Origin: Lutibacter profundi
Lineage (GTDB): Bacteria > Bacteroidota > Bacteroidia > Flavobacteriales > Flavobacteriaceae
Assembly (NCBI RefSeq): GCF_001543325.1
Contig: NZ_CP013355.1
Coordinates: 2,324,001 to 2,388,000 of the forward strand
Direction of reading: 5' to 3'
DNA: 64,000 nt
Shown here: piece after piece, positions 2,535-64,000 of the stretch
How the letters are laid out: the number at the start of each line of letters is the position of its first letter
Position numbering within the stretch: the stretch's first letter is position 1
Translations under genes and position numbers: made by a program
Notes under the pieces: generated by a model
Told to the model about the DNA's origin: nothing
The model's database searches: none
What the model saw: only the letters and a program-made list of their open reading frames with translations

Positions 2535-2558
2535 AATAGAACAATTTAAATTATAGAG

Positions 2559-3266: not shown

Positions 3267-3285
3267 AATATCTTTGAAAGTTATG

Positions 3286-3293
3286 CAAATATA
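3286..3293 (-). promoter_or_regulatory. -7 promoter element of pyrH-frr
   Basis: The minus strand reads TATATTTG, an exact TAnnTTTG match 20 nt before the pyrH ATG. No convincing -33 TTG is seen. Confidence 0.5.
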
Positions 3294-3345
3294 AGAAATT
3301 GTTTAGAAGTATAAATGGATTGTTTTTGTTGAATTTGTGGATTAA

Positions 3346-6300: not shown

Positions 6301-6636
6301 ATTTGTAATATCTTCAAATTTAAAATTTCCTTTGTTTAAGTATAATTTATTTGAACCTTGGTTTGCGGTAAAATATAAATCTGGCAATCCGTCATTATTT
6401 ATATCTCCAACAGCAACACCTGCACCATTATAGATATAGGAGTAATTTAAAAAATTAAAATGGAGACTTTCAGTTACTTTATTGGCAAATTGAATGTTCG
6501 TTTGGTTATTATCTAGTAAAGTAAAAAGTGAGGTTACTTCATCTCTATGAAGTTTTTTTTCATATTGAGTACATGCATTTAATAAACCAATTAATAAAAG
6601 TAAATTTAGAATGCTATTTTTTGAAAATATTTTCAT
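3346..6636 (-). CDS. CRTAC1-type FG-GAP/VCBS repeat lipoprotein with ASPIC/UnbV domain
   Basis: The 1096-residue product starts with a lipoprotein signal whose lipobox ends at Cys22 (GLLNAC). Two blocks of calcium-binding FG-GAP/VCBS repeats follow, with many D-x-(D/N)-x-D-G loops such as DINNDGLPDLYF and DFDNDGDADLFI. Between the blocks lies an ASPIC/UnbV-like region (GYQSSVTHKLHFGLG, then VKITWSDGS). Such proteins are usually surface-exposed beta-propellers, and in Bacteroidota they often sit beside SusCD loci. Here it is the last gene of the amino-sugar arm, 73 bp after the GH20 gene. A role in binding polymer or protein at the cell surface is inference; no catalytic motif is recognised. 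Confidence 0.85.
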   Translation of the reverse strand: MKIFSKNSILNLLLLIGLLNACTQYEKKLHRDEVTSLFTLLDNNQTNIQFANKVTESLHFNFLNYSYIYNGAGVAVGDINNDGLPDLYFTANQGSNKLYLNKGNFKFEDITNKANVVDKQGWSTGVTMIDINNDGWLDIYVCKSGSLESHELRKNKLFINQKNNTFKESAASYGIDHFGFSTQAYFFDFDKDNDLDLYLVNHRQDFQNNTTINPIIQQNKEPYNSDQLFRNDNMHFTNVTTEAGITNKAWGLSASIGDFNNDNLPDIYVANDFLEPDFLYINQGNGTFKDEILTRFKHISYNSMGSDYADINNDLKPDLVVLDMMAEDHIRGKENMASMSTENFEQLVNAGYHHQYMSNMLQLNNNDGSFSEIGQLAGIAKTDWSWAPLIADFDNDGFNDLFVTNGIKNDLSNQDFRNQMRKNIKNRKKVSLEEAINMMPSNKLSNYIFRNNKNLTFTNTTKKWGLDVKVNSNGAIYADLDNDGDLDIVVNNQADEASIYKNNATNNFVSFSLIGSEKNKNGIGSIVYVYTDSLQQGKELYVSRGYQSSVTHKLHFGLGNCTKIDSVKITWSDGSNQLITNCKINITHILSYKEAKKTVQNSSKKTSLFEVINPEELCINFLQKENIFNDFDLQLLLPQKQSEKGSPLTIADVNGDGLDDFFVGNALGEKAALFIQNSNGTFLNSNEQLFEKDKVYEDTNAAFLDIDSDGDLDLYVASGGYELEENSPLLQDRLYINNGKGSFKKLNNLPKMLSNTKAIAVADYDKDGDLDLFIGNGAIHGKYPLANKPYLLENKNGIFKNISLEKLPNLSDIQLVNDAIFSDFDNDGDADLFIVGEWMPIVLFENVNKKFIRKKLDILKNSNGWYQSIAETDINKDGFKDYIIGNWGTNNKFHPTIEKPLHIYADYLDANSTFDVVLSKVSKTGKLLPVRGKECSSQQVPVLNKKITTFKEFASLTLPGIYGEDALKKAFHFKVNNLKSFILKNTKNGNFTIQELPIQAQFSPTLSIETLDINNDGYEDIFGLGNIYDTEVETIRYDASKGYLLFGDKNGNFNFSENLSFYNNNEAKVVKKIIINHKQHLIILNKNNKLQILKLN

Positions 6637-6709
6637 AAATATATAAGGTATTATGCTTACTAGGTACGTGTTTTATTACTATAAAAGAAGCTTTCAGTAG
6701 TTTTTTTCA

Positions 6710-12420: not shown

Positions 12421-15400
12421 TTAGAAATTTACATTAATATTTAAACCAATACTTCTAGTAGAAGGTTGACCAAAAATGTCAACTCCCTGTAAACCAATCC
12501 CTGTACTTGAAGCAATATTAGGGTCAAAAGGTGCATCTTTATAAAGAAAGAATAAATTGTTCGCTATTAGTGATAAGCGAAGGTTTTCAATAAATTTATT
12601 TTCAAATTTTAAATTGTAGCCAATAGCGACTTCTCTTAAATTAACATTTGTTGCATCATAGACATATTCACCTAATAAACCTGCTCTACCACCAGTTTTT
12701 AGGTAATAGTCTTGCGCTGTCATTTGTTTAGTTACACCATTATTATCAACTACATCAATCATTCCTCCATTAGTATTTCTAGCATTAGCTGTTGCTTGTG
12801 AAACACCATAAAAATCATTTACAGCTTCAGTAACACTAACTACATCTCCACCAATTTTTGCATCAATTAAAAAGTTAAATGTAAAATTTTTGTAATCTAT
12901 ACTGTTATTCCACCCTAAGGTAAAATCAGGTTGGGCATGTGCAATAGTTTCCCAATCAGTAGTTTCAAGTGTTAAGTTTCCGTTATCGTCAGTAACTATA
13001 GGTAATCCATTTTCATTTCTTATAATTGAACGTCCTCTAATACTACCAAAATCTTCTCCTTCGATTAATGAATAGCCATAGCCATTAACACCTGGAGATG
13101 TTAGGATTGCTTCTCCATTTTGTAGAGAAGGGTGTACTGAGATTACTTTATTTTTGTTAGTAGCAAAATTTATTGAAGTGTTCCATTTCAAGTCATCACT
13201 TACAATTGGTTTTGCATTTAAGACTAACTCTATTCCAGTATTAGAAATTTCACCTGCATTTACAATATTTTGTGTATAACCATTAACATTAGGTTCTGCA
13301 GCTATAAAGAAAATTTGATTAGTAGTTTTTGAGTTATAATAAGTTAAGTCTATACCTAACCTGTTATGTAAAAAACGCCATTCAGTTCCGATTTCAAATG
13401 ATTTTTGTTTTTCAGGTTGTAAAGTCTCACCTTCTTTAACACCAAAGGTTGGTTTTATAAAATTAGTTTGCCCTGTTGGAATTGAGTTTAAAGGAATTGT
13501 TGCATAACTAGGGATCTCTTTTCCAACTTCAGCATAAGAAACTCTTACTTTAGCAAAAGAAATACTTTTAGGTAGTTCAAACATGTCAGATAATACACCG
13601 GTTAAACCAAGTGATGGGTAAAAAAATGATTTGGTATTTGTGTTTACAAGTGTAGATGACCAGTCATTTCTACCAGTAATATCAACAAATAACATGTTTT
13701 TATAGCTAAAATTTGCAGATCCAAAAATAGATTGAACTTCTCTATTAGAAACACTCTGCGAAATGTTGTTAGTTTCAGCAAAATTGGCTATTGTAAATGC
13801 ATTAGGATAAGTTAGGCCTTTACCATTCCCAGAGTCAAGAGAAAGTTTATCTCCAATAGAATATTTGGTTAAACTAGTACCAAGCACTCCAGAAAAACTA
13901 TAATTCTCAGAAATATTTTTGTTGTAGGTTGCTATTAAATCAATATATTGCTGTGTGTTTTCAGTCTTTTCTAAAATATACCTACCTGTTGAAGGAACAA
14001 ATGTTAAATCGCTTCCAGCATACATTTTTTTATCAAATGTAAAAAAGGATTTGTCAAAACTTCCTCTAGATTGAAGAGATAAATCATCTGTAACTTGGTA
14101 TTTCACACTTACGCTTGCAAGTACCCTTTGTGCAATATCTTTACTTTGATTACGATTAATTAACCAATAAGGGTTTTGCTGAATATTTTCATCAAACGAT
14201 GTAGCATATTGATCCATCATATTTGTTGATGGATTAAAATACTCATATTTGTTTTTGTAAATATTTAAATCAATTCCTACAGGGTTTAAATATAAGCCTG
14301 TTAGAGGGTTTGAGTATAACCCATTTGTTGGCCTGTTCCATATTCTTTGGTCAGATAAATTAATATTTGCTGAGACTTGAATTTTTTCATTCAAAAAATT
14401 TGCTGTTTCACGTAGATTTAAATTATTTCTAACTAATTTATTGTTTGGTAGTACACCATTGGTTAAGGTATTTGCAAACGATAAATAAGTTTGGGCTTTT
14501 TGATTTCCAGCAGTTAAGGATAATGATTGGATTGATGTGCTTCCGGTTTTAAAAAAACTATCTAGATTGTTTGATAGTCCACTAGCTTTCACCCCCCAAG
14601 ATTTAGGATCTGTAACATTTCCATTTTCAGCAACAGGTTGTCCAACAGAGTTAGATTGATATTCTGTTTGTAGTTCAGGTAAAGAAATTACATTATCAAT
14701 AGTTAGGTTTGAATTAAAGTTGACGCTTAATTTTCCATCTTTACCCCTTTTTGTAGTAATTAAAATAACTCCATTTGCACCTTGGCTACCGTATAAAGCA
14801 GCAGCAGAAGCACCCTTTAAAATAGACATGCTTTCAATATCATCAGGGTTAATTAATGACATGGCGTCACCACCATCTCTATTCCCTATTTGACTACCAA
14901 AAATATTAGCACCTGGTGCTTCACCATTTTGTCCATTTCCATTATTTAGCATAGGAATCCCGTCAATTACATATAAAGGATCATTATTTGAAGTTGATGA
15001 ATTCCCTCTTAAAACCACTTTAGAGGCTCCGCCAGCACCAGAGGAACTCCTTGTGATAGTTATTCCCGCAGATTTACCAGATAAACTATTTATTGGGTTT
15101 GTTTGTTTAACTTTTGTTAAATCATCACCTTTAACTTCTTGAGCAGAGTATGTTAAAGCCTTTTTTTCTTTTTTCATTCCTAAGGCTGTAATAATTACCT
15201 CATCTAAACTTTGTGCATCATCAAACAATACAACGTTTAATGTATTTGAGTCAGTTACAGTTATAGACTTAGTTTTCATTCCTAAAAATGAAAATTCTAA
15301 CACATCGCCATTTGAAGCTTCAATGGTGTAGTTCCCGTCAAAGTCAGTTTGGGTTCCTTTTGTTGTTCCTTTAATAACAACATTTACTCCGGGTAATGGA

Positions 15401-52765: not shown

Positions 52766-53788
52766 ATGAATGAAAACTTGAATCCTGAAAAAAATGATTT
52801 TAACTCTGAAGAATTAGAAGTTGAAAAAAAATTACGCCCATTAACTTTTGATGATTTTACAGGTCAAGAACAAGTTTTAGAAAACTTAAAAATATTTGTT
52901 GAAGCTGCCAATTTAAGAGGTGAAGCTTTAGATCATACATTATTTCATGGCCCTCCAGGATTGGGAAAAACAACATTAGCTCATATTCTTGCTAATGAAT
53001 TAAATGTTGGATTAAAAATTACTTCGGGGCCTGTTCTAGATAAACCAGGAGATTTAGCCGGTTTATTAACAAATTTAACAGAACGTGATGTATTATTTAT
53101 AGATGAAATACATAGGTTAAGTCCAATTGTTGAAGAATATTTATATTCTGCAATGGAAGATTACCGTATTGATATTATGATTGAAACGGGTCCCAATGCA
53201 CGTACAGTTCAAATAGATTTGGAACCATTTACCTTAATAGGAGCTACCACACGTTCAGGGTTATTAACAGCTCCAATGAGAGCACGTTTTGGTATTAGTA
53301 GTAGATTACAATATTATAACACAGAATTATTGACTACAATTGTACAGCGCAGTGCAACCATTTTAAAAGTACCAGTTTCAATGGAATCAGCCATTGAAAT
53401 TGCTGGTAGAAGCAGAGGCACACCACGGATAGCCAATGCATTGTTGAGAAGAGTTCGTGATTTTGCTCAAATAAAAGGAGACGGGAATATAAATATAGAG
53501 ATTGCAAAATACGCCTTAAATGCCTTAAATGTTGATGCCCATGGATTGGATGAAATGGACAATAAAATTTTAACAACTATTATTGATAAATTTAAAGGTG
53601 GTCCAGTTGGTATTACAACCATTGCAACTGCTGTAGGTGAAAATACTGAAACAATAGAAGAAGTGTATGAGCCATTTTTAATTCAAGAAGGTTTTATAAT
53701 GAGAACACCTCGAGGAAGAGAGGTAACAGAGCTTGCGTATAAACACTTGGGTAAAATTAAAGGAAAAAATCAAAGAGAATTATTTTAA
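52766..53788 (+). CDS. ruvB: Holliday junction branch migration helicase RuvB
   Basis: The 340-residue AAA+ ATPase drives branch migration with RuvA. It has [20 protein letters not shown] (about residues 22-41), Walker [10 protein letters not shown], Walker [10 protein letters not shown], the sensor block [18 protein letters not shown] and the C-terminal winged helix ([15 protein letters not shown], then [13 protein letters not shown]). The start is the first ATG; the N-terminal leader [12 protein letters not shown] resembles other flavobacterial RuvB proteins. No ruvA or ruvC lies nearby. Confidence 0.98.
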
Positions 53789-53797
53789 TCAGATAAA

Positions 53798-53811
53798 GTG
53801 ATGTTTATCAC
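53798..53811 (+). promoter_or_regulatory. Crp/Fnr-type palindrome A, upstream of the first SulP gene
   Basis: GTGAT-gttt-ATCAC is a perfect 5-bp half-site palindrome. Its centre (53804.5) is 32 bp upstream of the centre of the -7 box TATTTTTG at 53833-53840. Confidence 0.65.
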
Positions 53812-53832
53812 AATACTAAAAATAGTTCGCTG

Positions 53833-53840
53833 TATTTTTG
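53833..53840 (+). promoter_or_regulatory. -7 promoter element of the first SulP gene
   Basis: TATTTTTG matches TAnnTTTG exactly, 28 nt before the ATG. Palindrome A takes the place where a -33 element would lie, as for an activator-dependent promoter. Confidence 0.6.
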
Positions 53841-53868
53841 TTTTAAAATAAGATTACAAACTTACAAA

Positions 53869-55602
53869 ATGAGTTTAAAACAAGTATTCCCTTTTTTGAA
53901 TTGGCTTCCTTTAGTTAAAAAAACTTGGAAGGATGATTTAATTGCTGGTTTAACAGGAACTATTATTGTAATACCACAAGCTGTAGCATTTGCTTTAATT
54001 GCCGGTATGCCACCAGTTTATGGATTTTACATTGCCATGGTAGCTCCAATTATTGCTGCATTATGGGGCTCCTCTTACCATTTAATTTCAGGGCCAACTA
54101 CCACTAGTTCAATAGTGGTTTTTGCAATTATCACAAAATTTTACCATCCTGAGAATGAAATTGACATGTACATATCTATGACAATTGTTTTGTCTTTTAT
54201 GGCAGGCGTTATAAAGCTGCTAATGGGGCTTTTTAAAATGGGGAAATTAGTAGATTTTGTTTCTAATTCTGTAGTAATTGGATTTACTGCAGGAGCTGGA
54301 ATTTTAATTGCATTTAAACAATTAAAACATGTTTTTGGTATAAAAGTACCACAGGAATCAAAAATATATGAAGTTGTAAACTATATTATTCTACATATTA
54401 AGGAAACAAATACATATACTTTGCTAGTTGCTTTTGCTACACTTTTAATTGCGGTTTTAATAAAAAAATATTTAAAAAAAATAGGACGATTTAATTTGTT
54501 AATAGCGATGGTTTTAGGAACGTTGCTTGCAATTTATTTAGGAGGGGAACAAGCTGGAATTCAAACTGTTGGACACATACCAAACCATTTGCCACCTTTT
54601 AAAGTGCCTAATTTTAGTTTAGACTGGCTTCAGAAATTATTTCCAGGAGCTATTGTTTTAGCTTTATTGGGGTTAGTAGAAGCGGTATCAATTTCAAGAG
54701 CTGTAGCGTTACATTCACATCAAAAGTTAAACAATAATCAAGAGTTTATAGGTCAAGGACTATCAAATATTATTCCCAGCTTTTTTTCTTGCTACGCTAG
54801 TTCAGGCTCTTTTACACGGTCTGGAGTTAATTATCAGGCAGGTGCAAAAACACCACTTTCAGCAATAATAGCAGGAATTGGGTTAATTTTTGTTTTGCTA
54901 TTTGGAGCTAAATATGCATCATACCTACCAAAACCTGCAATGGGAGGAATAATTTTATTGGTAGGCTATAACTTAATTGATTTTAAACATGTAAAATTAA
55001 TTTATAAAAGCAGTAGAAGAGAACTGTTGGTGTTTTTATTAACTTTATTAGGAACATTATTTTTACATCTAGAACAAGCTGTAATTTTAGGTATTGCAGT
55101 TTCATTGGTGTTTTATCTAGAGAGAACATCTAAACCAAACATTGCAGAACTAGGTTTAAATAAGACTAAAAAATTTATAAACATTATAAGAGATTCTTCA
55201 GTACTTGAATGTCCACAATTAAAAATTATACGTATTGATGGTTCTCTTTATTTTGGAGCAGTAGAAGAAGTATCAAATTTTTTCACTGACCTTTATGAAA
55301 AAAATGATAGCAAGCATATATTAGTTCTTTCTAATGGAATTAATTTTATTGATTTAGCAGGAGCCGAATGGTTAACACATGAAGTTCAGAAATGGAGAGA
55401 AAAAGGAGGTCAAATTTATTTTTCAGGAATGAAATTAGTAAGTCAAGATATTCTTATTAAAGGAGGTTTCTTTGAAAAAATAGGAGCCCAATACTTTTTT
55501 AAAAATAAAAATATTGCAATAGCATCTATTTTTAAAGATTTAGATAAAAATATTTGCAAAGGCTGTGAGCTTAAAATATTTAATGAATGTAAAAATACGT
55601 AA
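53869..55602 (+). CDS. SulP-family anion transporter with STAS domain and Cys-rich tail
   Basis: The 577-residue protein begins FPFLNWLPLVKKTWKDDLIAG, the SulP start. It has about 12-14 helices with GTIIVIPQAVAFALIAGMPP and the ASSGSFTRSGVNYQAGAKTP signature. A cytoplasmic STAS domain follows (about 440-560; LKIIRIDGSLYFGAVEEV). It ends in a short tail CKGCELKIFNEC with three Cys, not usual for SulP. SulP proteins carry sulfate, bicarbonate or other anions. Next to sulfide-oxidation genes, export of sulfate or sulfite, or bicarbonate uptake, is inference. A Crp/Fnr-like site precedes it. Confidence 0.92.
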   Translation: MSLKQVFPFLNWLPLVKKTWKDDLIAGLTGTIIVIPQAVAFALIAGMPPVYGFYIAMVAPIIAALWGSSYHLISGPTTTSSIVVFAIITKFYHPENEIDMYISMTIVLSFMAGVIKLLMGLFKMGKLVDFVSNSVVIGFTAGAGILIAFKQLKHVFGIKVPQESKIYEVVNYIILHIKETNTYTLLVAFATLLIAVLIKKYLKKIGRFNLLIAMVLGTLLAIYLGGEQAGIQTVGHIPNHLPPFKVPNFSLDWLQKLFPGAIVLALLGLVEAVSISRAVALHSHQKLNNNQEFIGQGLSNIIPSFFSCYASSGSFTRSGVNYQAGAKTPLSAIIAGIGLIFVLLFGAKYASYLPKPAMGGIILLVGYNLIDFKHVKLIYKSSRRELLVFLLTLLGTLFLHLEQAVILGIAVSLVFYLERTSKPNIAELGLNKTKKFINIIRDSSVLECPQLKIIRIDGSLYFGAVEEVSNFFTDLYEKNDSKHILVLSNGINFIDLAGAEWLTHEVQKWREKGGQIYFSGMKLVSQDILIKGGFFEKIGAQYFFKNKNIAIASIFKDLDKNICKGCELKIFNECKNT

Positions 55603-55675
55603 GGTATTTTAGAAACATTAAACGCCATAAATAATTGTTTTAAAAGTATAAATAGACTTTTTAAAGTTAGAAACT

Positions 55676-57397
55676 ATGAAATATGCTAATTTTTTACCGT
55701 TTTTAAACTGGCTTCCTGATTATAAAAAATCTTGGTTAAAAGGAGACTTTTCAGCTGGGTTAACTGTTGGTATTATGCTAATACCTCAAGGAATTGCCTA
55801 CGCTATGATTGCGGGTTTACCACCAATATATGGTCTTTATACAGCAATGATACCTCAATTTATTTACGCCTTCTTTGGAACTTCACGACAATTAGCAGTT
55901 GGGCCTGTTGCTATGGACTCGTTAATAGTAGCTTCAGGGGTTGGTGCAATTGCAGTTGTAGGTTCAGAACATTTTATTTCTCTTGCAATATTATTGGCAT
56001 TATTAATGGGGATAATGCAATTAGCCTTCGGGATATTTAGATTAGGATTTTTAGTTAATTTTTTATCAAAACCAGTTATAAGTGGATTTACTTCCGCAGC
56101 AGCGTTAATTATTGGTTTAAATCAGCTCAAACACATATTTGGTGTAAATATGCAACGAAATAATCAATTGCAATACATAATTTTAGATGCTTTTAACCAA
56201 ATAAAATTTATTAATTGGCGAACATTTATTATTGGATTAATCTCAATATTATTATTGGTGTTTATAAATAAGTATTTTAAAAAATTACCAGGAGCTTTAA
56301 TAGTTGTTGTTTTCGGAATATTGGTTGTTAAATTTTTTAATTTAAATGATTATGGAGTTAAAATAGTTGGTGATATTCCCAAAGGTCTTCCTGATTTTAA
56401 AATTCAATTCATGGATGTTGAAACAATTAAAGAATTAGCTCCAATAGCTTTAACATTAGCATTAATTGCCTTTATGGAAGCAATTTCAGTTGCTAAAGCA
56501 ATAGAATCAAAACATAATAACTATAAAGTTAATGCCAATAAGGAATTAATAGCATTAGGGTTAGGGAACATTGTAGGTTCCTTTTTCCAAAGTTATCCGT
56601 CTACTGGAGGGTTTTCACGTACAGCTATTAACAATCAGGCTGGCGCCAACACACCTCTAGCTGCTATTTTTTCTGCATTAATAGTGGCACTAACATTGCT
56701 TTTTTTAACACCATTATTTTATTATTTACCAAAAGCAGTTTTAGGAGCTATTATAATGGTAGCAGTTTTTGGTTTGTTAGATTTTAGCGTACCTAAACAG
56801 TTGTGGAAATACACAAAACGAGATTTACTTATTTTAAATATTACATTAATAGTTACGGTTACTATTGGTATTAAAGAAGGAATAATTACAGGTGTAATTT
56901 TATCGTTAGTTATGTTAATTTATAAATCAACAAAACCGCATGTAGCAATTTTAGGAAATGTACCCAATACCTATTTATACAGAAATATTAAAAGATTTAA
57001 TGATTTAATTGATTTGAAAGATGTATTAATTATAAGGTTTGATGCGCAACTACACTTTGCAAATACCACGTATTTTAAAGATACTATTTATAATGAAGCT
57101 GAAAAAAAAGGAAGTGATTTAAAAGTTATTGTTATTGATGGAGAAAGTTTAAATAGCTTAGATAGCAGCGGTGTTTATGCCTTAAAAGAAATTTTAACAT
57201 ATTTTAAAGAAAAAAATATAGATCTCTATTTTACAGGATTAAAGGGACCCGTTAGAGATACAATTTATAAGTCTAATATCATTGAAGATATAGGTCAAGA
57301 GCATTGTTTTATGAGTATACAAGAAGCTATAGATCATTACCAAAATAAAGGAGTTAATGTAAATAAAAAAAGGTATTCCAGCCAAAGAAACCTTTAG
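55676..57397 (+). CDS. SulP-family anion transporter with STAS domain (second paralogue)
   Basis: The 573-residue SulP protein has FLPFLNWLPDYKKSWLKGDF at the start, then VGIMLIPQGIAYAMIAGLPP and SYPSTGGFSRTAINNQAGANTP. A C-terminal STAS domain follows (about 440-555; VLIIRFDAQLHFANTTYF, then SLDSSGVYALKEIL). It resembles the preceding gene throughout but is well diverged, and it lacks the Cys-rich tail. It lies 73 bp after the first SulP gene with no terminator between, so cotranscription is likely. Its substrate is not deducible. Confidence 0.92.
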   Translation: MKYANFLPFLNWLPDYKKSWLKGDFSAGLTVGIMLIPQGIAYAMIAGLPPIYGLYTAMIPQFIYAFFGTSRQLAVGPVAMDSLIVASGVGAIAVVGSEHFISLAILLALLMGIMQLAFGIFRLGFLVNFLSKPVISGFTSAAALIIGLNQLKHIFGVNMQRNNQLQYIILDAFNQIKFINWRTFIIGLISILLLVFINKYFKKLPGALIVVVFGILVVKFFNLNDYGVKIVGDIPKGLPDFKIQFMDVETIKELAPIALTLALIAFMEAISVAKAIESKHNNYKVNANKELIALGLGNIVGSFFQSYPSTGGFSRTAINNQAGANTPLAAIFSALIVALTLLFLTPLFYYLPKAVLGAIIMVAVFGLLDFSVPKQLWKYTKRDLLILNITLIVTVTIGIKEGIITGVILSLVMLIYKSTKPHVAILGNVPNTYLYRNIKRFNDLIDLKDVLIIRFDAQLHFANTTYFKDTIYNEAEKKGSDLKVIVIDGESLNSLDSSGVYALKEILTYFKEKNIDLYFTGLKGPVRDTIYKSNIIEDIGQEHCFMSIQEAIDHYQNKGVNVNKKRYSSQRNL

Positions 57398-57400
57398 CAA

Positions 57401-57416
57401 TGTGATGTTAATCACA
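57401..57416 (+). promoter_or_regulatory. Crp/Fnr-type palindrome B, upstream of the MBL-rhodanese gene
   Basis: TGTGAT-gtta-ATCACA is a perfect 6-bp half-site palindrome starting 3 nt after the second SulP stop. Its centre is 32 bp before the centre of the box at 57437-57444. Confidence 0.75.
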
Positions 57417-57436
57417 CAAAGAAGAAAACTAATTCA

Positions 57437-57444
57437 TTAATTTG
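57437..57444 (+). promoter_or_regulatory. -7 promoter element of the MBL-rhodanese gene
   Basis: TTAATTTG has one mismatch to TAnnTTTG, and lies 32 nt before the ATG. The weak box fits a promoter that needs an activator at palindrome B. Confidence 0.45.
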
Positions 57445-57476
57445 GAGCACTTTAATATTTATTTAAAATTAGAATC

Positions 57477-58892
57477 ATGAAAGTAGAACAATTATTTACT
57501 GGCTGTTTAGCAGAAATGGCTTACTATATTCACTCGAATGGAGAAGCCGCAATTATTGACCCACTAAGAGAAACCGAACCCTATATAGAAATGGCAAAAG
57601 CTGATGGTGCAAAAATAAAATATGTTTTTTTAACACATTTTCATGCTGATTTTGTTTCAGGTCAAGTTGATTTAGCAAAAAAAACAGGAGCAACTATAGT
57701 TTTTGGTCCAAATGCTGAAGCTGAATACGATTTACATGTAGGAAAAGATGGAGAAGAGTTTAAAATTGGAGACTTAACATTACAATTATTACATACACCT
57801 GGTCATACAATGGAATCTTCTTCTTATTTGTTAATTGATAAAGATGGAAATACACCCTACGTATTTACAGGAGACTGTTTATTTATTGGTGATGTAGGAA
57901 GACCAGATTTAGCGGTAAAATCTGATTTAACACAGGCAGACTTAGCAGGTCATTTGTTTGATTCTCTACGGAATAAAATTATGACTTTACCAGATGACAT
58001 TATTGTTTATCCTAATCATGGTGCTGGTTCAGCCTGTGGGAAAAATATGAGTTCAGAGACATTTGATACTTTAGGTAATCAAAAGAAAACAAATTATGCT
58101 TTAAGGGCTGATATGACAAAAGAAGAATTTATTAAAGAAGTAACTACAGGTTTAAAACCACCACCACAATATTTTGGGAATAATGTTAGAATGAATAAAG
58201 GCATAAATACAAATATTGATGAGGTACTGCACAGAGGAACAACACCAATTGATGCTGATACTTTTAAAGAAATGAGCGAGCAAAAAGATATTTTAGTTAT
58301 TGATACAAGATCTAAAGAAATTTATGCTGAAGAAGGAACAGTTCCTGGAGCTTGGTATATTGGAGTAGATGGAAGTTTTGCCCCTTGGGTAGGTGCTTTA
58401 GTTAAAGATATTAATCAAAAAATAATTTTTATCGCAGAAGGAGGTAGGGAGCATGAAGTTGTTACGCGTTTTTCACGCGTGGGGTATGATAATACGCTTG
58501 GATATTTAAGAGGCGGAATGCATGCTTGGAAGGCTGCAGGTCATGAAATTGATAAAATTGGTTCTATCTCAGCAATTCAATTTGCAAATAAATTAAAAGA
58601 AGGCTCTATGGAAGCACCTTTAGATGTTAGGAAAGAATCAGAATACTTATCTGAACACGTTGTAGGGGTGAAAAATTTTCCATTAGATACAATTCATCAA
58701 AATTTTGCTGAAATTAACCCAAATAAAGAATATTTTTTACATTGTGCTAGTGGATATCGTTCCTTAATTGCAGCTTCTATTTTTCAAGCAAATGGAGTTA
58801 AAAATGTAACAGATGTTAGAGGTGGGTTTAATGATATTAAAGATAGTGGAGCTGAACTTACAGAGTATGTTTGTCCAACAACATTATTATAA
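57477..58892 (+). CDS. Persulfide dioxygenase-like MBL-fold protein with two rhodanese domains
   Basis: The 471-residue cytoplasmic protein has a metallo-beta-lactamase domain (about 1-245): FLTHFHADFVSG (His54, His56, Asp58; Phe59 where HxHxDH enzymes have His), LHTPGHTMES (His110), FTGDCLF (Asp133) and PNHGAGSACG (His181). The pattern fits mononuclear-iron persulfide dioxygenases of ETHE1 type. Two rhodanese domains follow. The first (about 255-358) has Glu321 at the catalytic position (FIAEGGREHE). The second (about 362-465) has the active Cys423 (HCASGYRS). The expected role is oxidation of glutathione- or thiol-persulfide made by SQR to sulfite or thiosulfate. Confidence 0.9.
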   Translation: MKVEQLFTGCLAEMAYYIHSNGEAAIIDPLRETEPYIEMAKADGAKIKYVFLTHFHADFVSGQVDLAKKTGATIVFGPNAEAEYDLHVGKDGEEFKIGDLTLQLLHTPGHTMESSSYLLIDKDGNTPYVFTGDCLFIGDVGRPDLAVKSDLTQADLAGHLFDSLRNKIMTLPDDIIVYPNHGAGSACGKNMSSETFDTLGNQKKTNYALRADMTKEEFIKEVTTGLKPPPQYFGNNVRMNKGINTNIDEVLHRGTTPIDADTFKEMSEQKDILVIDTRSKEIYAEEGTVPGAWYIGVDGSFAPWVGALVKDINQKIIFIAEGGREHEVVTRFSRVGYDNTLGYLRGGMHAWKAAGHEIDKIGSISAIQFANKLKEGSMEAPLDVRKESEYLSEHVVGVKNFPLDTIHQNFAEINPNKEYFLHCASGYRSLIAASIFQANGVKNVTDVRGGFNDIKDSGAELTEYVCPTTLL

Positions 58893-58916
58893 TTATTTTA
58901 TTTTAAATAAAGTTTA

Positions 58917-58944
58917 AGAGAGAGTTTGTAACTCTCTCTCTTTG
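58917..58944 (+). terminator. Terminator of the MBL-rhodanese gene
   Basis: A 10-bp stem (58917-58926 with 58930-58939) made of AGAGAGAGTT/AACTCTCTCT has a 3-nt loop and is followed by a T-rich tail. Confidence 0.75.
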
Positions 58945-58953
58945 TTTAAAAAT

Positions 58954-58967
58954 GTAACATGGGTTAC
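58954..58967 (+). promoter_or_regulatory. Crp/Fnr-like palindrome C, upstream of the rhodanese lipoprotein gene
   Basis: GTAAC-atgg-GTTAC is a perfect palindrome. It is related to the GTGAT-N4-ATCAC sites but differs at two positions per half. Its centre is 33 bp before the centre of the box at 58990-58997. Confidence 0.5.
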
Positions 58968-58989
58968 TATCAAAACTTATAAGTAAATT

Positions 58990-58997
58990 TACATTTG
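58990..58997 (+). promoter_or_regulatory. -7 promoter element of the rhodanese-DUF3365-SQR unit
   Basis: TACATTTG matches TAnnTTTG exactly, with no TTG at -33. It overlaps the TTG codon that would otherwise be an upstream start, so translation must begin at 59022. Confidence 0.65.
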
Positions 58998-59021
58998 CCA
59001 AAAAATCAAAAACAATTAAAA

Positions 59022-59471
59022 ATGAAAACATCTATTAAATTATTAGGATTACTCAGTTTGAGTATTATTTTTATTAGTCTAAGTTGCAAAAACAATCAAG
59101 ATAAAAATAAGAGTTCAACAAATAATATTATTGTTAATACCAATCAAGAAACCAAAGGTAAAATTACCCTTCTTTCACCATCAGAATTCAAAGAAAAATC
59201 AAAAGACCATCAAATAATTGATGTAAGAACACCTATGGAATTTAAAGAAGGTTATATTGAGGGAGCTAAAAATATGAATCTTAAAGGTGATGATTTTACA
59301 AAAGAAATATCTTCTTTAGATAAAGATAAACCTGTTTATATTTATTGTAAATCAGGACATAGATCGGGAATTGCTGCTAAAAAAATGATAGAACTTGGAT
59401 TCAAAGAAGTTTATGATTTGCAAGGGGGTATTTTAAACTGGAAACAGAATAATAATAAAGTAAAAAATTAA
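59022..59471 (+). CDS. Rhodanese-domain lipoprotein
   Basis: The ATG at 59022 gives a 149-residue product with a lipoprotein signal (MKTSIKLLGLLSLSIIFISL, lipobox Cys22). A longer frame from TTG at 58995 is rejected because that codon lies inside the -7 promoter box. One rhodanese domain spans about residues 50-145 with IIDVRTPMEFKEGYIEGA and the active loop CKSGHRSG (Cys109). It would carry sulfane sulfur in the periplasm. It lies 9 bp upstream of the DUF3365 gene and probably heads a unit running through the first SQR. Confidence 0.9.
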   Translation: MKTSIKLLGLLSLSIIFISLSCKNNQDKNKSSTNNIIVNTNQETKGKITLLSPSEFKEKSKDHQIIDVRTPMEFKEGYIEGAKNMNLKGDDFTKEISSLDKDKPVYIYCKSGHRSGIAAKKMIELGFKEVYDLQGGILNWKQNNNKVKN

Positions 59472-59480
59472 GTAACTAAA

Positions 59481-60047
59481 ATGTTAAAATATTTTTTAAT
59501 TTTAGGTTTGCTATTAAGTATTATGGCTTGTAATACTTCAATATCTCTGAAAGAAAAGCAAGAATACTTAAAAAAAGGAAAGCAAATAACACAAGCCACC
59601 TTTAAAGAATTAAGTGGTAATTTAATGCAACAAATGAAATTAGGAGGCCCATCACAAGCAGTGCCTTTTTGTAACTTGCAGGCATTACCAATTGCCAATC
59701 AAATTTCTAAAAAGTTTGATGTGACTATTAAAAGAACTTCTAATAAATTGCGAAACCCAAAAAATAGCCCAAATAAACGAGAAGCAGAAATTATAAAACA
59801 ATATCAAATTTTATTAGAAAAGGATAAAGAATTATTACCAATAGTTGAGGTAGGTTCTGATAATATGAAGCATTATTATGCTCCTATTAAATTAAACACA
59901 AAGTGTTTAGCTTGTCATGGAGAGTTAAGAAAAAAATTAAGTGTAAAAACAGACTCGTTAATTAAGTCTTTGTATCCAAACGATATGGCAATTAATTATA
60001 AAAAAGGTGATTTTAGAGGGATTTGGAGTATTGAATTTAAAAACTAA
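59481..60047 (+). CDS. DUF3365 haem-binding lipoprotein
   Basis: The 188-residue product has lipobox Cys17 (LSIMAC). The body matches DUF3365 (Tll0287-like): GGPSQAVPFCNLQALPIANQ (about 56-75), RTSNKLRNPKNSPNKRE and a single haem c motif CLACHG (142-147). In related proteins the haem sits in a PAS-like fold and may sense redox state or carry electrons. It is placed between a rhodanese lipoprotein and an SQR (5 bp gap), which suggests a periplasmic redox role in sulfur oxidation. The precise role is unknown. Confidence 0.85.
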   Translation: MLKYFLILGLLLSIMACNTSISLKEKQEYLKKGKQITQATFKELSGNLMQQMKLGGPSQAVPFCNLQALPIANQISKKFDVTIKRTSNKLRNPKNSPNKREAEIIKQYQILLEKDKELLPIVEVGSDNMKHYYAPIKLNTKCLACHGELRKKLSVKTDSLIKSLYPNDMAINYKKGDFRGIWSIEFKN

Positions 60048-60052
60048 TTGAA

Positions 60053-61510
60053 ATGTCAAAAATAGTAGTATTAGGAGCTGGAATTTCGGGTCACACAGCA
60101 GTTTCATACTTAAGTAAAGCACTTAAGAAGAATCATGAAGTGATAATGATTTCCCCAAATAGCAATTTTCAATGGTTACCATCTAATATATGGGTAGGTG
60201 TTGGTTTAATGACTCCAGAACAAGTAAAATTTGCGTTATCTCCAGTTTACAAAAAATTAGGAGTCAATTATAAACAAGCAATGGCAGTTTCTATTTATCC
60301 AGAAGGAGATGATAAAAGTGCGAAAGGATTTGTTAAAATTAAATACGTTTCCGAAAAAGAAAACGGTAAAGAAGAAATTGTAGATTATGATTATTTAATT
60401 AATGCTACGGGTCCAAAATTAGATTTTGAAGCAACAGAAGGCTTAGGACCTCATAAATTTACGCAATCAGTTTGTACTTATGACCACGCAGCACATGCTT
60501 GGGATAAGTTTCAAGAAGCTCTTGCTAAGATGGAAAAAGGAGAACGTCAAACTTTTGTGGTTGGCACAGGCCATGCTTTGGCTACTTGCCAAGGAGCTGC
60601 ATTTGAGTATATTTTAAATATAGCTTTTGAAATTAAAAAGAGAAAATTAATGCATTTAGCCGATTTATGGTGGCTGAGCAATGAATATGAGTTAGGTGAT
60701 TTTGGTATGGGAGGTGCATATATAAAAAGAAATGGGTATGTTACACCAACCAAAATATTTACAGAATCTATTTTAAAAGAATATGGTATTAGATGGATAA
60801 AAAGAGCAGGTGTTCAAAAAGTAGAAGAAGGGAAAATCCATTATGAAAATTTAAGAGGAGAATATCATACAAAACAATTTGATTTTGCTATGTTAATTCC
60901 TGGTTTTTCAGGTGCAGGAATGAAAGCTTATAACAAGCAAAATAAGGATATTACTTCTGAAGTTTTTGTAGCTAACGGAATGATGAAAGTTGATGCTGAT
61001 TACACTCCTAAACCTTTTGAAGAATGGCGAGCAAAAGATTGGCCATCAACATATCAAAGTGTAAAATATGATAATGTGTACGCAGCAGGTATTGCATTTG
61101 CTCCACCTCACGGAATGTCTAAACCAATGCAAAGTCCAAACGGAACAAAAATATTTCCAACTCCACCTAGAACAGGAATGCCATCAGGCGTAATAGGTAA
61201 AATTGTTGCGCAAAATATTATTCATGCAGTTAAAACAGGTAAAATGATTCATAAGCATAAGGCTTCTATGGCACATATGGGAGCAGCATGTATTGTATCT
61301 GCAGGATATGGATTATTTAAAGGTCAAGCTGCTGTTATGACTGTAAATCCTATTGTGCCAGATTGGGAAAAATACCCTAAATGGGGAAGAAACATAAAAG
61401 ATACAGTTGGGGTTGTAGGTACAGCAGGTCATTGGATGAAATTGTTTATGCATTATATGTTTTTATATAAAGCGAAAGCAAAACCTTTTTGGTGGTTAAT
61501 ACCAGAATAA
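60053..61510 (+). CDS. sqr: Sulfide:quinone oxidoreductase-family flavoprotein (first)
   Basis: The 485-residue flavoprotein has the FAD-binding N-terminus IVVLGAGISGHTAVSYLSKA, NFQWLPSNIWVGVG and the second dinucleotide-fold motif INATGPKLDFEATEGLG. Candidate redox cysteines are Cys141, Cys179 (GTGHALATCQGAAFEY) and Cys413. The C-terminus (about 445-485) is aromatic and amphipathic (GHWMKLFMHYMFLYKAKAKP), as in membrane-associated SQRs. It would oxidise sulfide and reduce menaquinone at the inner membrane. A flavocytochrome-c-like role is an alternative. It lies 5 bp after the DUF3365 gene. Confidence 0.85.
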   Translation: MSKIVVLGAGISGHTAVSYLSKALKKNHEVIMISPNSNFQWLPSNIWVGVGLMTPEQVKFALSPVYKKLGVNYKQAMAVSIYPEGDDKSAKGFVKIKYVSEKENGKEEIVDYDYLINATGPKLDFEATEGLGPHKFTQSVCTYDHAAHAWDKFQEALAKMEKGERQTFVVGTGHALATCQGAAFEYILNIAFEIKKRKLMHLADLWWLSNEYELGDFGMGGAYIKRNGYVTPTKIFTESILKEYGIRWIKRAGVQKVEEGKIHYENLRGEYHTKQFDFAMLIPGFSGAGMKAYNKQNKDITSEVFVANGMMKVDADYTPKPFEEWRAKDWPSTYQSVKYDNVYAAGIAFAPPHGMSKPMQSPNGTKIFPTPPRTGMPSGVIGKIVAQNIIHAVKTGKMIHKHKASMAHMGAACIVSAGYGLFKGQAAVMTVNPIVPDWEKYPKWGRNIKDTVGVVGTAGHWMKLFMHYMFLYKAKAKPFWWLIPE

Positions 61511-61536
61511 AATACGAATAGTTAAAAAAAAATAAT

Positions 61537-61701
61537 ATGACTAAAATAACAGAGAAAACAGTTCCTTATAGTAATATTTCATATGGAACAGAACCAACAA
61601 AAATGGTGAGATTTATGAGAAGGTTTTTTATTTTTCAAGTTTATAACTTTTTTAGATTAAATTTAAAAGTAATGAAAATTGTTGTTGGAGGACATTCATA
61701 A
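61537..61701 (+). CDS. Small ORF, 54 residues, downstream of the first SQR
   Basis: ATG at 61537 to TAA at 61701 encodes a basic 54-residue product. It begins MTKITEKTVPYSNISYG and has an aromatic, amphipathic stretch MRRFFIFQVYNFFRLNLKVM (about 27-46) resembling a membrane-associated helix. It starts 26 bp after the SQR stop in the same direction. Codon use is like its neighbours (AAA, TTT and TTA dominate). I recognise no family. It may be a small partner of the SQR. The promoter of the next gene overlaps its 3' end. Confidence 0.6.
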   Translation: MTKITEKTVPYSNISYGTEPTKMVRFMRRFFIFQVYNFFRLNLKVMKIVVGGHS

Positions 61702-61714
61702 AGTATTAAATTTG
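61685..61714 (+). promoter_or_regulatory. Promoter of the HMA-domain gene
   Basis: TTG (61685-61687), a 19-bp spacer and TAAATTTG (61707-61714) match consensus exactly. This places the start near 61720 and supports the ATG at 61739 over any earlier start. Confidence 0.75.
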
Positions 61715-61738
61715 CCCTTAATAAATAAAAATAAGTTG

Positions 61739-62011
61739 ATGACAACAATTGAAGTATTAAATTTAAAATGTAATGGTTGCGCAAACACTATTACAAAAGG
61801 ATTACTTTCATTAGAAGAAATAAAAGATGTGTCTATTGATGTAGCAACGTCTAGTGTTTCTTTTGATTCAAATAATGAAGAAAATTTAAAATTAGTAAAA
61901 GAGAAATTAGTTGCAATGGGATATCCTGAAGTTGGTGATACTAATACTATTGTTCATAAAGCAAAATCTTTTATTAGTTGTGCTACAGGAAGAATAACTT
62001 TGGAGGAATAG
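61739..62011 (+). CDS. Heavy-metal-associated (HMA) domain protein
   Basis: The 90-residue protein is started at the ATG at 61739, since an earlier frame beginning at 61679 lies upstream of the transcription start. It has a single HMA fold: TIEVLNLKCNGCANTITKGL with the metal-binding CxxC (CNGC, Cys11 and Cys14), then the typical ITKGLLSLEEIKDVSID and a C-terminal extension with one more Cys (SFISCATGR). It probably binds copper or another soft metal, or carries sulfane sulfur on the cysteines; the latter is speculation from context. Confidence 0.88.
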   Translation: MTTIEVLNLKCNGCANTITKGLLSLEEIKDVSIDVATSSVSFDSNNEENLKLVKEKLVAMGYPEVGDTNTIVHKAKSFISCATGRITLEE

Positions 62012-62028
62012 CTAATTTTATTAAAAAT

Positions 62029-62074
62029 AAAACCCTTATTAATGTGATTAAAATCACATTAATAAGGGTTTTTT
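62029..62074 (+). terminator. Terminator hairpin containing Crp/Fnr-type palindrome D
   Basis: The arms are a perfect 21-bp inverted repeat (62029-62049 and 62052-62072) with a 2-nt centre and T's at the end. The inner 16 bases (62043-62058) read TGTGAT-taaa-ATCACA, the same as palindrome B apart from the centre. It can terminate the HMA gene as RNA and act as an operator for the next gene as DNA. Confidence 0.75.
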
Positions 62075-62078
62075 ATTG

Positions 62079-62086
62079 TAATTTTT
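62079..62086 (+). promoter_or_regulatory. -7 promoter element of the second SQR gene
   Basis: TAATTTTT has one mismatch to TAnnTTTG. Its centre is 32 bp after the centre of palindrome D, the same spacing as at the other sites. Confidence 0.45.
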
Positions 62087-62122
62087 TCCCATCAAAATTT
62101 ACGAACTAAAAAATATAAAATA

Positions 62123-63436
62123 ATGTCAAAACATTTTCAGGTTTTAGTCATTGGAGGAGGTACGGCCGGAATAATGGTTGCATCCATGTTAAAACGAAAA
62201 AACACTTCGCTTAAAATAGGGTTATTAGATCCTGCAAAAAAACACTATTATCAACCAGCATGGACTTTAGTTGGAGCAAATACGTATGATTTTGAAAAAA
62301 CAGCAAAATTTATGGATTCGTTAATTCCAAAAGGAGTTGAACATATTAAAGAATTTGCCGATAAATTTGATCCAGAAAATAATAAAATTATTTCTAAAGA
62401 AGGGAATGAATTTACGTACGATTATTTAGTGGTTGCTCCAGGGTTAAAAATTGCTCCAGATTTAGTAGAAGGTTTATCAGAAGCTATGGATAAAGGTGTT
62501 GTTTGTAGTAATTATACAAACCCAAACCATACTTGGGAGGTTCTTAAAAACTTTAAAGGAGGTACCGCTTTATTTACACAACCCTCAACTCCAATAAAGT
62601 GTGGGGGAGCTCCTCAAAAAATAATGTATTTAGCCGATGAGCATTTTACTAAAATAGGTGTTAGAGATAAAACAAATATTGTTTTTGCAATGCCGGGTAA
62701 TGTTATTTTTGCAGTAAAAAAAGTAGCCAAAACATTAATGGAAGTTATAGATAAAAAGGATATTAATGTTCGGTTTTATCATAAATTAGTTAAAGTTGAT
62801 GCAAAAGAACAAATTGCTTGGTATGAAATTTTAAAAGAATCGGATGATGGTAATGATTGTGTGGTAATTAAAGCTAAAGAAGGTGATGTTGTTGATAAAG
62901 AAATTCAGCATAATTATAAAGATATAAAAGCCATTGAAAAAGATGGTTTAATAGGCATTCATTTTGATATGATGCATTTGGCACCACCACAACAAGCACC
63001 AGATTTTATTAGAAACTCTCCTTTAGCCACTGAATCTGGCTGGTTATCTGTTAATTCTTCAACAATGCAACATAAAAAATACAGAAATATATTTGGAGTT
63101 GGGGACGTTTGTGAGTTGCCAACGGCCAAAACAGGAGCAGCGATAAGAAAACAGGTGCCTGTAGTTGTTGAAAATATTTTAAATTTATTAAGTACAAGTA
63201 AGTTGGCTGATAAAAAGTACGATGGTTATTCTTCTTGTCCTTTGGTTACAGGTTATGGGAAAATGGTATTAGCAGAATTTGATTATTCGAAAGAGTTTAA
63301 GCCAGACCCCAAATTAAAAGAGTTTCCGTTAATGATTAGTGATTCTTCAAAAGAACATTGGCGTTTATGGATTCTAAAAAAATATTTATTACCGTATTTA
63401 TATTGGAATAAAATGATGAAAGGTATTGAAGTATAA
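62123..63436 (+). CDS. sqr: Sulfide:quinone oxidoreductase, eukaryote-like type II
   Basis: The 437-residue flavoprotein has the FAD motif VLVIGGGTAGIMVASMLKRK, HYYQPAWTLVGA, YDYLVVAPGLKI and the second-cysteine region TPIKCGGAPQKIMYLAD (Cys160). Downstream are SNYTNP (after Cys128), GVGDVCELPTAKTGAAIRKQ and YSSCPLVTGYGKMVLAEFDY (Cys372). Cys160 and Cys372 are the likely catalytic pair, as in mitochondrial SQOR. It passes electrons from sulfide to quinone and sulfur to a thiol acceptor. It has its own promoter region with palindrome D and differs strongly from the first SQR. Confidence 0.92.
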   Translation: MSKHFQVLVIGGGTAGIMVASMLKRKNTSLKIGLLDPAKKHYYQPAWTLVGANTYDFEKTAKFMDSLIPKGVEHIKEFADKFDPENNKIISKEGNEFTYDYLVVAPGLKIAPDLVEGLSEAMDKGVVCSNYTNPNHTWEVLKNFKGGTALFTQPSTPIKCGGAPQKIMYLADEHFTKIGVRDKTNIVFAMPGNVIFAVKKVAKTLMEVIDKKDINVRFYHKLVKVDAKEQIAWYEILKESDDGNDCVVIKAKEGDVVDKEIQHNYKDIKAIEKDGLIGIHFDMMHLAPPQQAPDFIRNSPLATESGWLSVNSSTMQHKKYRNIFGVGDVCELPTAKTGAAIRKQVPVVVENILNLLSTSKLADKKYDGYSSCPLVTGYGKMVLAEFDYSKEFKPDPKLKEFPLMISDSSKEHWRLWILKKYLLPYLYWNKMMKGIEV

Positions 63437-63446
63437 AACAAAAATA

Positions 63447-63511
63447 CCATATAGAGCGCACTCGAAATATAGTTTAACACAATTTCTATTTTTCGACTGC
63501 GCTCGAAATGG
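63447..63511. repeat. Imperfect inverted repeat, related to the element after infB
   Basis: The left arm 63447-63469 and right arm 63489-63511 pair imperfectly. The right arm read on minus (CCATTTCGAGCGCAGTCGAA, then AAAT) aligns with the infB-side repeat core, sharing CATTT-n-GA-n-C and AGT with AAAAAT. It lies between the convergent second SQR and TonB-receptor genes. Confidence 0.6.
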
Positions 63512-63579
63512 CTTCCTAGCTGTTATGCTTAATTTGTTTTAGCACCTTATTACATAAATTCTTTTTTTTATCGTTCTTC

Positions 63580-64000
63580 TTAAAATTTTAGAGTAGCTCC
63601 AACCAAAAAATTTCTAGTGGCTTGAGGATAATACCCTGCTCCATCTAAAGTAGTGGTTTCTCCCGGAACAGACCAAGTATCATCATAGGTATAATAATAT
63701 CCGTTTGAAATATATTCAACATTAAAAATATTATTTAACAATGCTGTAAACACAATAGATTTAATTATTTTTTTAGGTTTAATTTCATAGGAAAAATTTA
63801 AATCATTTACAAAATAGCTCTCCAATTTTGAATTTTTGTTATCAATATTTCCCATATACTGTTCTCCTACATATTTTGAAAGTAGAGAAATATACATTTT
63901 TGTATTTGGTGCATAAGTAAATGAATTCCCTGCAACTATTTTTGGAGAAAATGAAAGATTGGTTTTTCCTAAACTCACTAATTCTCCATTCCATGAAGTT
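63580..64000 (-). CDS. TonB-dependent receptor, C-terminal fragment (5' part outside window)
   Basis: About 140 C-terminal residues are visible; the frame is open through position 64000. The sequence shows beta-barrel strands: SFSPKIVAGNSFTYAPNTKM, then LESYFVNDLNFSYEI and ALLNNIFNVEYISNGY, with a C-terminal Phe (GATLKF). These are typical of the final strands of a TonB-dependent outer-membrane receptor. The ligand cannot be told from this part. A Met near 63978 is an internal codon, not a start, because the barrel context continues upstream. Confidence 0.88.
   Translation of the reverse strand, partial: TSWNGELVSLGKTNLSFSPKIVAGNSFTYAPNTKMYISLLSKYVGEQYMGNIDNKNSKLESYFVNDLNFSYEIKPKKIIKSIVFTALLNNIFNVEYISNGYYYTYDDTWSVPGETTTLDGAGYYPQATRNFLVGATLKF

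Follow-up and report, generated by a model that had tools for sequence, protein, structure and literature searches.

The sulfide region of Lutibacter profundi (Bacteroidota; Flavobacteriaceae) lies in a 64,000-nucleotide stretch of contig NZ_CP013355.1 (positions 2,324,001 to 2,388,000), which we call the window, and it encodes two SulP-family transporters (SulP1 and SulP2), a persulfide dioxygenase-like protein (PDO), a rhodanese-domain protein and a sulfide:quinone reductase-like flavoprotein (SQR). An earlier note on this DNA had proposed that four palindromes of the Crp/Fnr type, each at a fixed distance from a promoter box, join these genes in a regulon under class II activation. Our analysis makes a small sulfide-oxidation regulon likely, in which a Crp/Fnr-type protein that we name CrpX would act on operators of the GTGAY type and CrpE, or another paralog with the recognition helix RVVxSR, on operators of the GTAAC type, and in which the SQR operator would be merged with a transcription terminator. 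The features of the region are as follows (window coordinates).

53797-53812, plus strand: SulP1 operator, GTGAY type, AGTGATGTTTATCACA, predicted from the sequence and the Lutibacter orthologs
53833-53840, plus strand: predicted -7 box of SulP1, TATTTTTG, 20 nt past the operator
53869-55602, plus strand: SulP1, SulP-family anion transporter with STAS domain
55676-57397, plus strand: SulP2, second SulP-family transporter
57401-57416, plus strand: PDO operator, TGTGATGTTAATCACA, exact motif, conserved in relatives
57437-57444 or 57438-57445, plus strand: predicted -7 box of PDO, TTAATTTG (centre distance 32) or TAATTTGG (33)
57477-58892, plus strand: PDO, metallo-beta-lactamase fold with two rhodanese stretches
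58917-58939, plus strand: ordinary terminator-like hairpin after PDO, distinct from the next operator
58953-58968, plus strand: operator of the rhodanese gene, GTAAC type, TGTAACATGGGTTACT
58990-58997, plus strand: predicted -7 box of the rhodanese gene, TACATTTG, 21 nt past the operator
59022-59471, plus strand: rhodanese-domain protein
59481-60047, plus strand: Tll0287-like protein, downstream of the rhodanese gene
60053-61510, plus strand: Pyr_redox_2 protein, downstream of the Tll0287-like gene
61739-62011, plus strand: small HMA (metal-binding) protein, the gene ahead of the terminator (start codon assumed)
62029-62074, plus strand: predicted intrinsic terminator, perfect 20-bp stem with 4-nt loop and T tract at 62069-62074, its tip being the SQR operator
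62043-62058, plus strand: SQR operator, GTGAY type, TGTGATTAAAATCACA, identical with the apical part (stem and loop) of the terminator hairpin
62079-62086, plus strand: predicted -7 box of SQR, TAATTTTT, 20 nt past the operator, with the T tract in the spacer
62123-63436, plus strand: SQR

The four palindromes, here defined as 16-base sites, were found where the earlier note had seen them, and our own count returned the same operator-to-box centre distances of 32, 32, 33 and 32 bp (33 also for the 57401 site with its alternative box). Inspection by eye of these four promoters agreed with the note that all of them lack a TTG at -33. Its impression that the rest of the window has no comparable sites also held, the only matches to TGTGAT-N4-ATCACA within one mismatch being at 53797, 57401 and 62043, while the 58953 site belongs to a different half-site type (GTAAC); at up to three mismatches the window contains 38 matches versus 40 in shuffles, and such loose matches are thus noise. 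In the genome-wide scan that had been suggested as a check, the exact motif is unique to this region, with two occurrences in the 2.97-Mb genome that both fall within the window, but within one mismatch there is no excess over the backward pattern (7 versus 10), three of the seven lying inside 4.3 kb here. The degenerate pattern TGTRAY-N4-RTYACA occurs 17 times exactly, versus 7 for its backward form. For the SulP2 gene of the window no operator of its own was found within three mismatches of the former motif or one mismatch of the degenerate consensus.

The sites were followed in relatives, taken as the best 80 loci by PDO protein match (L numbers denote loci and G numbers genomes, G000 being the genome that holds the window; one organism sometimes stands under two names, L016 being the window and L145 the same as L054). 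The best match to TGTRAY-N4-RTYACA was taken from the 200 bp upstream of each start, and the same strings reversed served as control. A site with at most one mismatch precedes PDO in 69 of 78 cases (2 in the reversed control), SQR in 21 of 22, SulP1 in 23 of 51 and SulP2 in 23 of 54 (reversed control 0 for all three), and among control genes it was found in 0/13 for COX1, 0/27 for HMA, 1/34 for Tll and 2/16 for ruvB; the flavoprotein gene has it in 2/14, namely in L077 and L078. In SulP1 the site lies 71-77 bp ahead of the start codon in all 17 distinct Lutibacter-type sites at that threshold. The central N4 is variable, while sites and box spacing stay conserved across genera.

Spacing and half-sites were counted on distinct site sequences per promoter, seven loci being present in both SulP sets. 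Over five promoters TAnnTT stands 20 or 21 nt past the 16-base site in 163 of 185 rows versus about 7 expected (158 of 178 without the double-counted SulP loci). By promoter this amounts to 21/23 for SulP1 (shuffles 0.8), 21/23 for SulP2 (0.9), 60/68 for PDO (2.6), 17/22 for rhodanese (0.3) and 44/49 for SQR (2.2). The five rhodanese rows without a box (L066, L073, L078, L079 and L103) have their matches about 160-180 bp away, in or near the preceding gene, and for L144 a wrong second site entered the box count, this locus being omitted from the half-site count. At the four promoters of the window a palindromic operator at a fixed box distance replaces the -33 element, as in class II activation, where the operator is centred near -41.5, the transcript start here being a predicted one.

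There are two operator types, GTGAY at SQR, SulP1 and a distant molybdoenzyme operon and GTAAC at the rhodanese gene, and PDO is mixed. SQR sites are GTGA/GTGA in 15/15 Lutibacter cases, and outside the genus (n=33) they are GTAA/GTAA in 29, GTGA/GTGA in two (L078 and L084) and odd in two. All 17 Lutibacter-type SulP1 sites within one mismatch are GTGA/GTGA, and all 15 Lutibacter-type rhodanese sites within two mismatches are GTAA/GTAA; the rhodanese sites have lost the outer T and A and retained GTAAC-N4-GTTAC.

The earlier note had placed the regulator gene outside the window, and a candidate was indeed found elsewhere in the genome, near a further copy of the site:

G000:C1:1648029-1648685, minus strand: CrpX, Crp/Fnr-type protein, 0.73 Mb from the window
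1641349: degenerate-pattern site 55 bp from a 4Fe-4S and NrfD-type gene, followed by a molybdopterin oxidoreductase, 0.74 Mb from the window

CrpX and its paralog CrpE flank two genes of a sulfur-transport family (YeeE/YedE-type), 7 kb from the molybdoenzyme operon. The genome holds eight proteins over the cut-off of the cyclic nucleotide monophosphate (cNMP)-binding model, plus CrpX, which that model misses. The C-terminal part of CrpX carries a Crp-type helix-turn-helix (HTH) domain (HTH_Crp_2 39.1 bits, cut-off 27; Crp 30.8 bits, cut-off 21), and residues 47-215 align to the solved Crp/Fnr protein 3dv8. Against the curated model of cAMP-activated CRP it reaches 29 bits at a cut-off of 266, so that it does not qualify as a CRP of the E. 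coli type. A look for sulfur-sensing residues in 29 aligned CrpX rows showed no Cys marked as conserved. Its recognition helix reads RETVSR versus RETVGR in E. coli CRP, whereas that of CrpE reads RVVISR. In excerpts of two papers on E. coli CRP, Arg185 and Glu181 of R180ETVGR185 contact G4:C4 of TGTGA (PMC11253593), and the same contact of Arg185 and Glu181 is described again (PMC12531629).

Regulator and half-site vary together among the relatives. Full-length CrpX with at least 59% identity is present in 31 of the 38 genomes of the genus, with end-of-contig fragments in two more, and in all 16 that hold SQR; among other genera, 29 genomes with SQR were compared, whose best matches are only 31-38% identical and were counted as 0/29 CrpX. 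The recognition helix is RE..SR in 30/30 CrpX loci and RVV.SR in 30/30 best-match loci of other genera, and it is where these best-match helices are RVVxSR that SQR sites are mostly GTAAC. The only other GTGA/GTGA cases at SQR are L078 and L084, where the gene immediately ahead of SQR codes for a REVISR regulator. These two Crp/Fnr genes lie at L078:9480-10112 and L084:11162-11794, each with a GTGAC-type operator between it and SQR. SulP1 sites are GTGA/GTGA in 7/7 CrpX-bearing and 2/2 CrpX-fragment genomes sampled, and in CrpX-less G223 and G224 the SulP1 site is at the same place without any GTGA half. Loci with a nearby regulator gene that fit this pairing are L109, L111, L115, L119 and L121 (RVVxSR with GTAAC at PDO; L114 has no site) and, for RE..SR with GTGA/GTGA, L078 and L084 at SQR, L122 at PDO, and L107. 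In a tree of 62 rows (9 of the 29 CrpX rows being retained) all 38 Val rows fall on one side of a branch with support 89/81, and the 20 Glu rows form two or more groups; this tree is weakened by its long branches and we give it no weight. To judge from these sequences, CrpX is the best regulator candidate and most likely reads the GTGAY operators, and the GTAAC operators of the rhodanese type are most likely read by CrpE or another RVVxSR paralog.

The conserved site at the Fer4-NrfD/molybdoenzyme operon is what a regulon would predict. Orthologs of this operon with at least 84% identity occur in 30 of the 38 genus genomes, and all 30 have a site at -68 to -72 with at most two mismatches, 27 of them with at most one (reversed control 3/30 and 0); each of the 30 sites has at least one GTGA half. 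Of the 28 genomes that carry both the molybdoenzyme gene and a full-length CrpX, 20 show the two on the same contig within 20 kb and eight on separate contigs. The CrpX-less G213, G222, G223, G224 and G232 also have no molybdoenzyme gene, and likewise the CrpX-bearing G207, G225 and G228. The operon perhaps encodes a sulfite dehydrogenase of the SoeABC-like kind, and together with SQR, PDO and SulP it would carry sulfide to exported sulfate.

The SQR operator has a further property. The stretch 62029-62074 consists of a stable stem-loop and a following T tract, the hallmark of an intrinsic terminator; its hairpin has a stability z of -6.96, and 0/200 shuffles are as stable. Across 16 aligned Lutibacter sequences, chosen for having the site, 97.2% of the lower-stem cells are paired (0/500 shuffles as high), both sides have changed in 9 of 11 lower-stem pairs, and the GTGA/TCAC tip is invariant in all 16. 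The gene ahead of it varies (HMA, a small membrane protein or a Tll0287-like gene), and in the ten loci listed this gene is co-directional, with its end 108-135 bp ahead of SQR. Of 17 distinct Lutibacter sequences only L150 (G217) was excluded from the alignment; by eye it has, some 60 bp ahead of SQR, a hairpin followed by a T tract while its operator has decayed to TGTGAA-N4-TTCATA, and no site within two mismatches was found in the 150 bp before SQR; thus the two uses can come apart.

Outside the genus most SQR operators have no outer stem. Of eight possible outer-stem pairs around the SQR operator, the 16 Lutibacter rows have 7.7 on average versus 3.6 in 33 rows elsewhere, L144 being the sole Lutibacter row below 7/8 and L076 and L083 of other genera also reaching 7/8. 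An architecture scan of loci 46-131, 203 onward and the window (1.53 Mb, 533 distinct core palindromes) found outer stem, T tract and box together in 12 palindromes, ten at SQR and two at the flavoprotein gene of L077 and L078. The latter two (L077:6225-6240 and L078:7052-7067) represent another lineage and combine a terminator with a GTAAC operator, and L037, from another genus, has a shorter terminator-operator at SQR with a 6-pair stem. In L060 and L064 a separate hairpin with T's stands just upstream of the operator (by eye); since most operators elsewhere are stemless as well, the merging of operator and terminator at SQR is probably secondary. It appears that the SQR operator doubles as the predicted terminator of the preceding gene and that this double use is kept in relatives.

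In the mechanism that we propose, Crp/Fnr-family activators would sit in the class II position: about 32 bp separate the centre of the operator from that of the Bacteroidota -7 box downstream, which puts the operator near -40 from the predicted start. CrpX would read the GTGAY operators of SulP1, SQR, the molybdoenzyme operon and partly PDO, and CrpE or another RVVxSR paralog the GTAAC operators (rhodanese). As DNA the SQR palindrome would bind the activator, and as RNA it would form the upper stem and tetraloop of a terminator whose T tract falls in the spacer before the -7 box. We infer binding to these sites, activation rather than repression, the transcript starts, and real termination at the hairpin. 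The inducer may be a reduced sulfur species, and the pathway would run from sulfide through persulfide and sulfite to sulfate.

A number of observations weigh against this scheme. The consensus TGTRAY-N4-RTYACA was widened after the PDO sites had been inspected. Only 2/26 rhodanese sites lie within one mismatch and 22/26 within two, with 5/26 and 8/26 in the reversed control. Lutibacter PDO sites are mixed (n=18: eight GTAA/GTAA, eight hybrid, two GTGA/GTGA), and in CrpX-less G213 the PDO site is a hybrid, one of its halves being GTGA, and the sampled stretch holds only a SulP2-like gene, which has a hybrid site; given these PDO sites, assigning a single regulator to each half-site type oversimplifies. 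CrpX-less G222 has no SulP1 site, and G223 and G224 are near-identical past the site and probably reflect one event, so that the natural knock-out rests on few genomes. The helix class of other genera was read from the best CrpX match per genome, in genomes that hold further Crp/Fnr paralogs. A REVISR regulator accompanies a GTAAC PDO site in L113, and PDO without GTGA/GTGA in L069, L081, L087, L094 and L104 (L094 has one elsewhere), and L121 combines its RVVVSR gene with one GTGA/GTGA-type match ahead of a SulP gene. CrpX has no PF00027 match that would mark an N-terminal sensor domain of the cNMP-binding type, and directly upstream of crpX no site was found in 30 loci (best two mismatches), a region that does not cover the start of the crpE-crpX cluster. 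What stands of the single regulon in the earlier note is the Crp/Fnr class II reading, with conserved sites, spacing and a fifth member, while one regulator for all four sites is probably wrong.

Several other explanations have to be weighed against the CrpX/CrpE scheme. That the sites are chance palindromes of an AT-rich genome would agree with the unenriched counts in the window at three mismatches and in the genome at one, but it is contradicted by sites that many genera keep at a constant place ahead of the same genes and by reversed controls near zero, and we practically discard it. At SQR the 62043 palindrome might be a terminator only, its resemblance to an operator accidental: it forms the end of a strong hairpin with a 20-bp stem and a T tract, and in L150 (by eye) both of these remain while the operator has decayed. 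The sequence of a terminator is free to vary, yet the tip stays constant while the lower pairs change, the SQR box stays 19-20 nt off, and most other genera have the SQR operator without an outer stem, so that this account is very improbable. Slightly less so, though still improbable, is that the sites bind a repressor and serve no activation, a thought suggested by the sulfur regulators of other phyla, which are often repressors according to excerpts of two papers (PMC10451225; PMC12423496); the fixed 20/21-nt box distance and the missing -33 TTG of the four window promoters are what class II activation needs, and a repressor would presumably tolerate other positions.

A more serious competitor, which we still consider unlikely, is that CrpX has no part in this and a single regulator (CrpE, CrpF or L014) acts on every GTRAY site, and that G or A at the fourth position is tolerated degeneracy. 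It would account for the mixing of both half types at PDO promoters within one genus, CrpE adjoins CrpX in the same gene cluster, and L014 also has the helix REVISR; against it, the Lutibacter sites counted are GTGA at SQR and SulP1 and GTAA at rhodanese, the switch tracks CrpX, and matches in the low-identity class of L014 (24-32%), its putative orthologs, occur in only 4/16 SQR-bearing genomes in the CrpX search. Doubtful too is an extension of our own scheme, namely that the SQR element is a dual-code switch whose palindrome was selected both as CrpX operator in DNA and as terminator in RNA, with the two uses coupled, and with operators and regulator of the lineage set apart from those of other genera at one matching contact (G for A at half-site position 4, Glu for Val at the recognition residue). 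Coupling is only a possibility; it might mean that bound CrpX alters how transcription of the upstream gene terminates or reads through, or that upstream transcription clears CrpX.

The CrpX/CrpE scheme resembles E. coli CRP at class II promoters in the TGTGA half-site, the six bases between five-base halves, the helix R-E-T-V-[G/S]-R and an operator centred some 40 bp ahead of the start (here a predicted position). It differs in its Bacteroidota-type core promoter, its sulfur-gene targets, the missing PF00027 match and the distance of CrpX itself, whose best structure is 3dv8 (E 8e-8), with the CRP chain 4bh9 at E 0.0018. With the RVVxSR regulators of Bacteroidota it shares the fold family and the adjacent paralog CrpE, while position 4 of the half-site is G in GTGAY sites and the matching residue of CrpX is Glu instead of Val. 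ArsR-type sulfide or sulfane-sulfur regulators are described as controlling SQR, PDO or related genes. BigR/SqrR, CstR and FisR control SQR, PDO or related genes as repressors or sigma-54 activators. All of these belong to protein families other than class II Crp/Fnr activators. The SQR element is like other intrinsic (Rho-independent) terminators in having a stem, tetraloop and T tract and in following the stop codon of a gene read in the same direction, and unlike them its upper stem is also an operator and its T tract lies inside the next promoter.

Search listings showed no published account of SQR or PDO being regulated by a Crp/Fnr protein in Bacteroidota, nor of terminator-operator hybrids. 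For sulfide oxidation in Bacteroidota our scheme would provide a regulon open to testing, with a candidate for the regulator and exactly defined operators. It would also be a natural instance of a regulator and its sites differing jointly at a single contact that is already known, and in the conserved terminator-operator hybrid the same letters would serve as stop signal in RNA and as switch in DNA.

As for the surroundings, the domains of PDO suggest the function of a persulfide dioxygenase, and the nearest NCBIfam model of SQR is type III SQR (245 bits, cut-off 525). Rfam at gathering scores gave no match in 53500-64000. Among the best 80 loci the nearest relatives of the PDO protein are from Lutibacter, next from other Flavobacteriaceae and then from further Bacteroidota, and the closest loci share COX1, ruvB, SulP1, SulP2 and PDO, after which rhodanese, Tll0287-like, flavoprotein, HMA and SQR genes follow with varying completeness.

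Elsewhere in the same genome, sites of the GTAAC type were seen at a NapA/NapD-like gene pair (L138, G000:C1:969052, TGTAACATTTGTTACA) and before a NosZ-like gene set (L143, G000:C1:2273871, TGTAACTATTATCACA), the genes being named by eye, which suggests that such sites may also serve nitrogen-oxide respiration. A second sulfur cluster lies in L130 (G000:C1:8000-22000, positions 2111-7807 and 12591-13731), with a type III SQR over the NCBIfam cut-off, DsrE-like and DsrC-like proteins, a Crp/Fnr regulator with the helix RVVVSR and, by eye, YeeE/YedE-looking transporters. In another genome of the genus, contigs G200:C17 and C19 carry fragments of SQR-like genes, some with stop codons, that have apparently decayed.

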